Origin: Lachnospiraceae bacterium
GTDB lineage: Bacteria; Bacillota; Clostridia; Lachnospirales; Lachnospiraceae
DNA: 64,000 bases
Direction: 5' to 3'
NCBI GenBank assembly: GCA_017624835.1
Contig: JAGAMG010000052.1
Location: 1 to 64,000, forward strand
Within the stretch, counting starts at the first letter, position 1; each line of letters begins with the position of its first letter. The notes under the pieces are model-generated. The model was not told the origin of the DNA. It worked only from the letters and a program-made list of their open reading frames with translations, and searched no databases. Positions 22,096 through 42,894 of the stretch are shown here, piece by piece. A program made the position numbers and the translations under genes.

Positions 22096-22256
22096 GGTTA
22101 TGAAGTAACCAACTTATAAAATTTGAGCTTTTAACTCAATCAATAAGGCAACCTTAAGTTGCCAATCGGCAGTGGACCCGGCTGTCCGTATGGCCTTAAC
22201 TCCTATGGAGTGGTCCCAATAATTGCTTGGAAAGACTCCGAAATCAATCCTTCCAA
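22096..22256 (-). ncRNA. Structured 5' leader of the polyamine operon, family unknown
   Basis: On the minus strand seven consecutive helices can be drawn in about 160 nt: 22256-22248 with 22235-22227 (9 bp, one wobble), an outer 22216-22212 with 22178-22174 enclosing 22211-22207/22203-22199 and 22195-22193/22182-22180, then 22163-22158/22152-22147, 22139-22135/22127-22123 and 22110-22106/22100-22096. A three-way junction closed by GGACC/GGTCC is the core. I recognise no T-box, lysine, SAM, cobalamin or guanidine consensus. It lies between a strong promoter and the possible attenuator before speA. The remainder of the 690-base gap (22111-22122 and 21903-22095) holds nothing I can name. Confidence 0.5.
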
Positions 22257-39312: not shown

Positions 39313-39404
39313 GTTAAAATATTAAAAAATACTTTGAATATAAAAGTATTGCAATATAAAATTATTGTAATGAAAAAGGAATCACAAAAGCTGTGGAGGT
39401 ATCT

Positions 39405-41507
39405 ATGGAGTATAACGAGAAAGCGTTTGCCAAAAGTGCAAATAAAAAGGCAATGGGAATGTGGCTTGTAATGTCCATTGTGTTATCGGCGGCATATGCC
39501 ATTGAAATTGTGAAAGGATTGAAAACAGTTCAATATTTTGTAATTATGGAATTAATCTGTTGGATTCCTTTTATATTTGGATTGATTGTTTTAAAGGTAA
39601 AAGGCTGGCATACCAAGCTGTATCAGGATATTGTGGGATTTGGTTATGGTGCTTTTTATCTTTATATAATGATGACTTCACCGGGAACCTTGGCATTTAC
39701 TTACATTTTACCTTTGATGAGTATGCTGATTATTTACAAAAATAAGAATTTTATTTTGCGCTGTGGTGTTGCCAGTGTTACTGTTTTGGTTATTACAATT
39801 GTGCGAAATTATTTGAAGGGTATGAATACTCCAAATGATATTTCCAATTATGAAATTCAGTTTGGTATTATTCTCTTTTGTTATATCGGATATATTGTGG
39901 CAATTAATCATATGATAAAGTCCGATGGCGCATTGCTGGACTCTGTAAAGGATAATCTGGCTAAGGTGGTTACTACGGTTGAAAAGGTAAAGGTGGCAAG
40001 TAATTCGGTTGTAGATGGTGTAACCGTGGTAAGAGAATTGGCTGAGGAAAATAAAGAAGGTGCTAATATTGTTGTTGGCAGTATGGATGAATTGGCTGAA
40101 AAAAACATGGTATTAAGCCAGAAAATCGATTCTTCCATGGAAATGACGGAGGACATTGACAATCAGGTTGGAAATGTAGCTGAGTTGGTAGCACATATTG
40201 TAGAAATTAGTGAAAAATCAGCTAATCATGCTAATATCAGTGCGAAGGATTTGAAAAATGCGGTGGATGCCACTAATGCAATGGCAAGATTGTCTTCGGA
40301 AGTGGAAGATATTTTAAATGAATTTAAGAATCAGTTTGATAAAGTAAAAAGTGAAACAGGAACCATCGAAAATATTACCTCCCAGACCAATCTTTTGGCA
40401 TTAAATGCTTCTATTGAAGCTGCCAGAGCAGGAGAAGCAGGAAAAGGCTTTGCTGTGGTTGCGGATGAAATTAGAAATTTGAGTATGGGGACTCAGAATT
40501 CTTCTAACAGTATTATGGATGCTTTAAAGCTTTTGGAGGAAACCTCAGGTAAAATGACGGAATCCATTACAACCATTCTGAATCTGATTTCCGAAATCTT
40601 AGAAACCATGCAGACTGTCAATGCCAGTGTTGATATGATAGCAAAGGATTCCAAACAGCTTGGTGAGGAAATTCAGGTAGTGGACTCTGCTATGAATCAG
40701 GTGGAATGCTCTAACAAAAACATGGTAGATAATATGAAGCAGGTGCAGGATATTATGGTTACCATGACGCAGAGTGTATCTGAATCTGCCACAACCACAT
40801 CAACCATGCTAAGTAAATATGAGGAGACTGCCCGCAATGTAATTAACATTGAATCTGTTGTTGGTAAATTGGTAGAAGAATTAGGTGCCGGCGGATTTAT
40901 GAGTTTGGAAGATGTTACTGCCGGAATGAAAGTGATTTTGGTTGAGCAGGGCAGTAAGACGGATTATCATACAGAGGTCGTAGATGTACAAAAAGAAAAG
41001 GTAATGATACCTGTTTCAGACGCTTTGGAAAATTATCTGACAGGGAATACGGGCAAGAAGAAATATGAAGTTCGTATTATTGTAAATAATACGGTTTATG
41101 TTTGGTATGATGTGGAGATTGGCAAGCGAACAAAGAATGCCAATGGACAATATGCTCTTGTACTGGATGACAATCCCAAGGTGTTAAATCGTAGAAAGCA
41201 TCCCCGATTGCCGTTGGCAAATTCCTGTGAAATTTTGTTGAAAGCTACAGGAAAAGCTTATTCGGGAAAGGTAGTAAATATCAGTGCCGGTGGTTTTGCT
41301 TTTGCCTGTAAAGCACAGGAATTTGCAAGGGTTAATGGAGAGATAGTGGAATTAACCATTCAGGATTTTGAATTATTAAAAGGAAAGGCGCTTACAGGTA
41401 TTGTTATTCGTTCCACTGATGATCATGGAACCTATATTGTAGGTTGTAGAATGCCTGAGGATAATGCAGTAATTCAAAAATATGTCAATGAAAAAACGAT
41501 GAAATAA
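39405..41507 (+). CDS. Membrane chemoreceptor with C-terminal PilZ domain
   Basis: 700 residues from the ATG at 39405, which has TGGAGGT upstream. About six membrane helices fill residues 20-175, without a large outside loop, so sensing is probably in or at the membrane. A methyl-accepting signalling region follows (about 180-480) with the hairpin tip [20 protein letters not shown]. The last 110 residues form a PilZ domain: RKHPR (the RxxxR motif) and NISAGG (the N/DxSxxG motif) are both complete, so cyclic di-GMP binding is expected. The receptor could couple chemotaxis to cyclic-di-GMP levels. It stands alone and is followed by the 53-bp periodic array. Confidence 0.88.
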
Positions 41508-41567
41508 ATGTATTTCTGATGGTATTAAAATGATGATTTACAACTGGAATAGAAAAAATTAAGCTAA

Positions 41568-41905
41568 TTGGGGAAAGAGTATAAAACTATACCAATTGAT
41601 AATAGGAAAATATAATCTGATTGGGATAAAATTATAACACTATACCAATTAAAATTGAGAAAATATGATTTGATTGGTAGAAAATTCAAGTGCGTTACCA
41701 ACTAAAATATGAAATGCATAATTCTGTTGGTGTATAAGTCAGGTGAAATGCCAATTGTGATATGAAATTCTCAATTATGTTGGTATAGGAAAGGAAGAAT
41801 ATACCAACTAAATCTAAAAGATATATTTTGAGTTGGTATAATGACAAGAAATGCTCCCAATCAAAGTGCGAAAAAACTAAATAAATTGGTATTTGTACCA
41901 TATAA
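41568..41905. repeat. 53-bp periodic array of TTGGK-N18-MCCAA sites
   Basis: TTGG begins exactly every 53 bases at 41568, 41621, 41674, 41727, 41780, 41833 and 41886. In the first six units the partner CCAA follows at a fixed distance: five bases, 18 bases, then ACCAA, GCCAA or CCCAA, then 25 bases to the next unit. The seventh is a short hairpin TGGTA-TTTG-TACCA. Sequence between the sites varies strongly; only a GAAA near the middle of the second spacer and general A/T richness recur. No reading frame spans the array. It lies between the chemoreceptor-PilZ stop and a terminator, so it may be in a 3' untranslated region or be a DNA element. Confidence 0.88.
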
Positions 41906-41916
41906 ATTTTCTAAAG

Positions 41917-41945
41917 ATATCGGACATGCTTCCGGTATCTTTTTA
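41917..41945 (+). terminator. Intrinsic terminator downstream of the array
   Basis: GATATCGGA pairs with TCCGGTATC (nine pairs, one wobble) and is followed by TTTTT. It would end the chemoreceptor-PilZ transcript, or a separate RNA containing the array. Confidence 0.8.
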
Positions 41946-42180: not shown

Positions 42181-42894
42181 ATGGATAACAGTAAATTTCA
42201 TATTTTAATAGTGGAAGATGATAAGGAAATTCGTGAGGGTGTAGAAATTTATTTGAAAAATCAGGGATATGTGGTTTTTCAAGCTGCTAATGGACAGGAA
42301 GCGCTAAAGATAATCGAGGAACAGGAGATACATTTGGCAATTGTGGATATTATGATGCCGGTTATGGATGGTGTGACCATGCTTATGAAACTGCGTATGC
42401 TTGAATATGAATTTCCTGTAATTATGCTTTCTGCCAAGTCTGAGGAAGTGGATAAGATTATGGGGTTAAATATGGGGGCGGACGATTATGTGACAAAGCC
42501 CTTTACACCGCTGGAGCTTTTGGCAAGAGTAAATTCTCATTTGAGAAGGTATTCCAAATATTTATCAGCAGTCAATGAATACAGCAATAAGGAGCAGATT
42601 TATACCATTGGCGGACTGGAGCTGAATGAGGACAGAGTGGAGGTCAGTGTGGATGGAGAACCTGTAAAGCTGACTCCCATGGAATTTAAGATAGTACAGC
42701 TTCTCATAAAAAATCCCGGAAGGGTTTTTCCGGCGGATGAAATTTACGAGCGTGTTTGGAATGAAAAAGCAGTAAATACCGATACCATTATGGTTCATGT
42801 AAGAAATATAAGAGAAAAAATTGAAATAGATCCTAAGAATCCCAAGTATTTGAAGGTGGTTTGGGGTGTTGGATACAAGATCGATAAGCAGTAG
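42181..42894 (+). CDS. OmpR-family response regulator
   Basis: 237 residues. Receiver domain with acidic pocket Glu12, Asp13 and Asp14 and phospho-acceptor Asp56 (VDIMMPVMDG), the conserved MLSAKS serine and lysine, and KPF. The C-terminal winged-helix DNA-binding domain (about 130-237) is of the OmpR/PhoB type (LTPMEFKIVQLLIKNPGRVF). The partner is the histidine kinase encoded 31 bases downstream. Target genes unknown. Confidence 0.93.
   Translation: MDNSKFHILIVEDDKEIREGVEIYLKNQGYVVFQAANGQEALKIIEEQEIHLAIVDIMMPVMDGVTMLMKLRMLEYEFPVIMLSAKSEEVDKIMGLNMGADDYVTKPFTPLELLARVNSHLRRYSKYLSAVNEYSNKEQIYTIGGLELNEDRVEVSVDGEPVKLTPMEFKIVQLLIKNPGRVFPADEIYERVWNEKAVNTDTIMVHVRNIREKIEIDPKNPKYLKVVWGVGYKIDKQ

Follow-up and report, generated by a model that had tools for sequence, protein, structure and literature searches.

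Dispersed intergenic arrays of CCAA–TTGG modules at a 53-bp step, in and beyond a Lachnospiraceae genome

An intergenic array of TTGG and CCAA half-sites, found in the window (the whole 64-kb stretch of DNA that was analysed), is one member of a real and selected family of arrays spanning at least 12 genomes, namely its own, ten MAGs and G341. The distribution of the family is patchy. The arrays consist of regularly spaced modules whose cores are conserved while the spacers drift, the flanks of the half-sites are species-specific, and the few linkers of clearly different length lie near whole helical turns. On balance, we lean towards reading each array as a row of operators for a putative dedicated DNA-binding protein, aligned on one face of the helix.

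In the window, TTGG occurs at 41568, 41621, 41674, 41727, 41780, 41833 and 41886, a step of exactly 53 bp, and CCAA occurs at 41592, 41645, 41698, 41751, 41804 and 41857. Each CCAA starts 24 bases after the start of a TTGG, which gives the layout TTGG-N20-CCAA-N25 in strict alternation with a period of 53. The sequence thus confirms the seven evenly spaced TTGG of the preliminary description, as well as a CCAA after each of the first six; the distance between the two, given there as 23 bases, is corrected here to 24. A scan of every tetramer at periods of 12–199 over the whole window recovered runs of at least five at period 53 for TTGG (7), CCAA (6) and TGGT (5), and at period 15 for GAAA (5). 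The autocorrelation of the array region, proposed earlier as a check, is highest at 53 (0.517), followed by 159 (0.436) and 106 (0.414). Tandem Repeats Finder reported 2.6 copies, at 41548-41686, because the later units have drifted.

Read as 33-bp modules of the form CCAA-N25-TTGG on the forward strand, the array comprises complete modules at 41592..41624, 41645..41677, 41698..41730, 41751..41783, 41804..41836 and 41857..41889, the last of which carries the final half-site; the exact half-site is absent from the next expected positions in our array-end analysis. A degenerate module precedes them at 41540..41571, with ACAA at 41540, a step of 28 bp before the first TTGG, so that seven modules occupy 41540-41889. 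Between successive modules, within 41572..41856, run six 20-bp linkers that have drifted in sequence and are constant in length. Upstream lies a forward-strand gene that encodes an MCP signalling domain and PilZ according to the domain scan (39393..41507), its stop codon 60 bp before the first TTGG. Downstream, 26 bp past the array, our own script placed a terminator-like hairpin with a trailing T run on the forward strand (41915..41940, -12.2 kcal/mol), which is absent from the output of a consensus terminator scan. The array thus sits between the MCP-PilZ stop codon and this hairpin, and the next forward-strand gene encodes a response regulator with Trans_reg_C (42181..42894, domain scan). 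Elsewhere in the window, a match to the SpF59 sRNA (RF02440) lies on the reverse strand at 22166-22216, scoring 70.6 bits where the cut-off is 37.2.

The window array is one of nine in its own genome, all intergenic and each on a different contig. There, the pattern TTGG-N20-CCAA-N25-TTGG has 39 forward and 41 reverse matches, and the reversed pattern has 0 and 0. A search of relatives, suggested in the preliminary description, recovered the spacing pattern in ten other MAGs at 30 loci; these came from a species-genome collection, described as covering 84,980 species, that was scanned with an exact 20-base pattern, the reversed control being run on the own genome instead. Nine of the ten assemblies are labelled Lachnospiraceae and one Clostridiales, and the titles of six refer to the gut of deer, sheep or goat. 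Arrays were present in 2 of 299 genomes of a family sample and in 2 of 138 from the genus, the own genome being included in both counts, and in 2 of the 4 genomes of the SIG299 genus. With looser spacing, 28 of the 138 genus genomes had a match: G000 with 43 and 42, G341 with 5 and 4, all within one array, and the other 26 with one to three, a setting in which the reversed control also matches in some genus genomes. A phage origin was rejected, as the five-half-site pattern had no match in viral contigs.

To quantify the spacing, half-sites were chained in 39 arrays of 11 genomes. Chaining, which admits only steps of 22-26 (TTGG to CCAA) and 27-31 (CCAA to TTGG) and favours exact cores, gave 24 in 204 of 221 TTGG-to-CCAA steps and 29 in 211 of 245 CCAA-to-TTGG steps, the others being off by one or two. 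Because the loci had been fetched by exact pattern, one matched stretch per array was dropped, and 135 of 152 and 142 of 176 steps, respectively, were still exact. The core itself is exact in 493 of the 505 chained half-sites; the 12 degenerate cores are in L031, L033, L039, L053, L056 and L060, four of them in a single array of the own genome.

The first half-site is CCAA in 33 of the 39 arrays and the last is TTGG in 30 of 39, and some of the exceptions are arrays cut by the end of the stretch. Since arrays mostly open with CCAA and close with TTGG, the unit is CCAA-N25-TTGG with 20-bp linkers between. The oriented profile used 36 of the 39 arrays (L024, L045 and L058 left out). Among the 35 arrays with both ends within the locus, the number of modules rounds to 6 or 7 in 25; counts of 2 and 3 (L024, L045 and L097) arise where unusual linkers break up the array, and the linker measurements give these arrays 5-6 modules. 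Linkers were measured in 40 loci, two of which had no module at the chosen score cut-off. Overall, 178 of the 199 linkers are 20 bp long and 11 are 19 or 21 bp, five are 72, 73 or 126 bp and are read as skipped degenerate modules, and five are 9-11 or 52 bp. Neighbouring deviations in spacing did not compensate each other significantly (p 0.08). Past most array ends, the end analysis found no further half-sites in phase, and module matches outside the arrays of the own genome number 4 and 5 by strand, versus 2 and 3 for the reversed control. In L047, an extra TTGG lies 8 bp past the array end without a module of its own, and was excluded from the linker variants.

The preliminary description had proposed selection on spacing more than on sequence, with the sites as protein-binding half-sites. 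In support of selection on half-sites and spacing, core identity within the window array is 1.00 versus 0.44 for the spacers, and the flanks of the half-sites differ by species. Across the 14 arrays compared, spacer identity is 0.40-0.55 in eight at a core identity of 1.00, reaching 0.40 in the SIG299 arrays L023 and L043, for which composition alone gives 0.28. Between SIG299 arrays, the N20 linkers are near chance (0.32 vs 0.30) and the N25 interiors above it (0.46 vs 0.35). The interiors retain A/T beside both cores and an A-rich centre. The bases around TTGG are genome-specific, the half-site being TCGTTGGGT in RGIG4203, TTTGTTGGT in SIG299 and AGTTGGTAT in the own genome. The E04__bin383 array (L031:2332-2627) has CTTGGCT half-sites, in which TTGG is preceded by C, a departure from the consensus of the other genomes compared. 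RGIG5355 and RGIG4203 have one array place in common, where the half-sites differ despite three neighbour proteins that are 88, 88 and 96% identical. A TwoAYGGAY RNA (RF01731) lies beside the array at this common locus in both genomes (L028:6431-6597 and L042:5136-5301), on the strand opposite the neighbouring genes.

These comparisons also bear on a neutral, decayed minisatellite (VNTR), an alternative raised in the preliminary description. Some arrays are indeed homogenised (spacer identity 0.91 in L049 and 0.76 in L057), and the number of modules differs at the RGIG5355/RGIG4203 locus, 6 versus about 12. A minisatellite should be about equally similar along its unit, and the window array is not, with cores at 1.00 while spacers drop to 0.40-0.44 there and in the SIG299 arrays. 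Nor do relatives carry near-identical copies that have lost the spacing: they keep it, and several of their arrays have mutually unlike spacers, though others are homogenised. The constancy of linker length and the presence of the same TTGG/CCAA layout on unrelated spacers in different genomes further argue against neutrality. Mycobacterial MIRU and other intergenic VNTRs are likewise dispersed tandem repeats of about 50 bp, and MIRU copies are near-identical, whereas the half-sites and spacing of our arrays persist where the spacers have drifted. We therefore regard a neutral minisatellite as very improbable, although a minisatellite process may describe how the arrays grow.

The anatomy of the module is what an operator would look like. 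In the form CCAAY-N23-RTTGG, it offers two inverted half-sites (AGTTGGTAT in the own genome) around an AT-rich centre, the shape expected of a symmetric-dimer site. Modules recur every 53 bp, about five turns, and therefore bound dimers would share one face of the helix. In line with this alignment, already suggested in the preliminary description, the five linker variants are near whole helical turns: linkers of 9, 10 and 11 bp in L097 and of 52 bp in L024 and L045 give module steps of 41-43 and 85 bp, about four and eight turns (Rayleigh p about 0.007, with n=5 from three arrays and three of the values from one array). In a whole-genome search of six genomes, the compact form had 3 and 3 matches in G288, all within the L097 array, one match in G000 and two in G435, with controls at 0 or 1 per strand. 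Inside the unit, AT content has its strongest period near 8.5-9 bp and none at 10.5 bp, and helical phasing within the module is therefore unsupported. We infer both protein binding and the dimer state; bound dimers would build a regular nucleoprotein rod, usually of 6-7 units, in intergenic DNA. That such a rod acts as a local chromosome-structure or transcription-boundary element is a guess, and we hold it to be rather doubtful. Phased operator or centromere-like arrays of the parS/parC type combine repeated half-sites, helical spacing and a dedicated binding protein; the present arrays differ in that nine of them lie in one genome beside ordinary genes, and partition families were absent among the 55 neighbour proteins scanned.

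A search for the putative binding protein among the genes beside the arrays gave no lead. The 55 distinct neighbour proteins that were scanned are of ordinary and varied kinds, which led us to reject a common gene theme, and the window array has no tie to chemoreceptor genes that extends to the other arrays. One recurring neighbour cluster has 14 members, of which the two scanned were an ABC transporter ATPase and nothing else; the others have few members and, where scanned, comprise MATE, response-regulator, kinase and chemoreceptor proteins. None of the scanned clusters stands out as a binding factor, and the lack of a candidate among these recurrent neighbours counts against the operator reading, as do the twelve degenerate cores, the pairing signal described below and the absence of arrays from most genomes of the genus. 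Near the C49 array, about 2.4 kb away, is a chemoreceptor-like stretch with three in-frame stops (G000:C49:45146-45934), and in RGIG1692 a T-box leader just over the cut-off (L040:6409-6632) lies about 90 bp before the array.

The main difficulty for the operator reading is strand polarity, which is unexpected for a symmetric dimer site. Among the 33 of 39 arrays with unanimous flanking-gene orientation (six with mixed neighbours were left out), the purine fraction of the gene-sense strand is 0.683 in arrays; the values for intergenic flanks and for genes are 0.592 and 0.568. It is above 0.5 in 30 of the 33 and exceeds that of the intergenic flanks in 23 of 26 arrays and that of the neighbouring genes in 30 of 33. 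At the module centre, A outnumbers T in 31 of the 33. This polarity may reflect a role in transcription, in replication or as RNA.

The last of these roles would make the arrays co-transcribed strings of CCAAC/GUUGG hairpins with A-rich loops, read in the messenger by a protein or an RNase. The preliminary description had raised a similar possibility, a run of hairpins in the 3' untranslated region, and part of the evidence is compatible with it: the arrays are polar and co-oriented with their genes, as just described, and the pairing tests are mixed. A terminator-like hairpin follows within 160 bp downstream of 2 of the 39 arrays, the window array and L056. In N25, the first position pairs in 163 of 216 cases versus 141 in shuffles and the second in 145 of 216 versus 126, with 0 of 5000 shuffles as high; this pool used within-genome shuffles, with five single-locus genomes as one group and homogenised arrays included. 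The own genome (p 0.010) and RGIG4203 (p<0.001) have longer N25 arms; in SIG299 (p 0.016) and RGIG1692 (p 0.003) it is the N20 arms that are longer. Two core pairs have changed together, to TCGG-N20-CCGA, in L033 and L042. In contrast, the first N25 pair is independent in the least homogenised arrays, those of SIG299 (16 vs 15.4), and borderline within the arrays of the own genome (p 0.053); the first positions of N20 show no excess (p 0.12 and 0.90), and several inner positions pair less often than shuffles.

Folding likewise cuts both ways. Both strands fold better than shuffles (34 and 37 of the 39 arrays have z below -2), and the z-scores are equal by strand (-5.6 and -5.8), so there is no strand preference; on the sense strand, about 135 of 236 paired CCAA have a partner other than the neighbouring TTGG. 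The identity of the core is itself kept, beyond what pairing demands, and six arrays are flanked by genes of opposite orientation, convergent in three cases and divergent in three. Rfam searches of ten sources yielded no array match at gathering score, and the single match to the window array reached 19.6 bits (cut-off 76, E 0.4). Overall, the covariation evidence for RNA hairpins is mixed, and an RNA function of the arrays appears unlikely to us.

We also considered whether the arrays are selfish interspersed repeats, akin to REP/BIME or MITE, that a palindrome-reading transposase spreads and keeps. In the portions of PMC2817692 on which we draw, REP/BIME are described as regularly spaced units whose orientation alternates; most lie outside genes, they are species-specific, and roles in organising the chromosome and in terminating transcription have been proposed for them. 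To the extent of that description, the arrays are alike, being regularly spaced palindromic units in alternating orientation in intergenic DNA, and their species-specific sequence and patchy distribution fit as well. The gap between mnmA and PHP in SIG299 fits too, in that it holds an array where three members of the genus lack one, their mnmA being followed by another gene (G436 and G435) or by other DNA (G437). By our reading of the DNA, the gene after mnmA in G436 and G435 (L091 and L093 vs L050) resembles UDP-galactopyranose mutase. The last linker and two half-sites of the SIG299 array form a long, near-perfect hairpin between convergent genes (L050:3805-3831), possibly a terminator. A comparable empty site at the MCP-PilZ locus was rejected, as synteny is lost downstream of the G305 ortholog of this gene.

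Several differences set the arrays apart from such repeats. Few units lie outside arrays in the own genome, and the linkers are free in sequence and fixed in length. Complementary change, expected of a REP palindrome, gave mixed results in the pairing tests. No flank duplication was detected, the longest shared word of the 25-bp flanks being 4.29 versus 4.41 in shuffles (31 of 39 arrays with enough flank). The transposase search, which consisted of Y1_Tnp (PF01797), gave no match in the bearers tested, G000, G341 and G288 (G000 and G341 about 85% complete), whereas 7 of the 17 genomes in which no array was detected had one; we therefore do not assign the arrays to REP/BIME, although the layout resembles a BIME, and consider a selfish repeat quite improbable. 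The pneumococcal BOX element, as far as the part of PMC3049150 used here describes it, is likewise dispersed and has a middle module that is repeated in tandem a variable number of times; it is described by sequence models and a stem-loop structure. The arrays resemble it in being dispersed and built of tandem modules of variable number, and differ from that description in showing no shared end modules, the flanks of the arrays compared being different.

A CRISPR-like array of 33-nt repeats and 20-nt spacers might be suspected, given that the palindromic 33-mer is semi-conserved and that the 20-mers alternating with it are near random between SIG299 arrays. However, the repeats are not identical (N25 identity is 0.50 within SIG299 arrays), the N20 are themselves repeated within RGIG4203 arrays (0.74), and Cas families are absent among the 55 distinct neighbour proteins scanned. 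Three single SIG299 N20, out of 35, were compared with viral contigs and gave no exact match, a weak test. We give this interpretation almost no credence. Integron attC sites have RYYYAAC/GTTRRRY cores with cassettes between the sites; the RGIG4203 half-site GTTGGGT resembles such a core, and the 20-bp linkers leave no room for a cassette gene.

No description of such arrays was found in a narrow search of the open-access literature, subscription papers being mostly outside its reach. Extending the operator reading, we tentatively put forward, as a possibility that is far from assured, that the arrays represent a new class of bacterial chromosome element, in which a genome carries about nine dispersed and polar operator arrays in helical phase. 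The DNA-binding protein that reads them would evolve fast, its specificity shifting from one species to another in concert with its entire set of sites, and the bound arrays would form regular nucleoprotein rods at transcription or replication boundaries. If true, this would be a dispersed bacterial element that conserves geometry rather than sequence, with site sets that differ in their flanking letters between near relatives. It would also provide a clean case for the co-evolution of a DNA-binding protein with dozens of its sites, and possibly reveal a new bacterial way to mark or insulate places on the chromosome.
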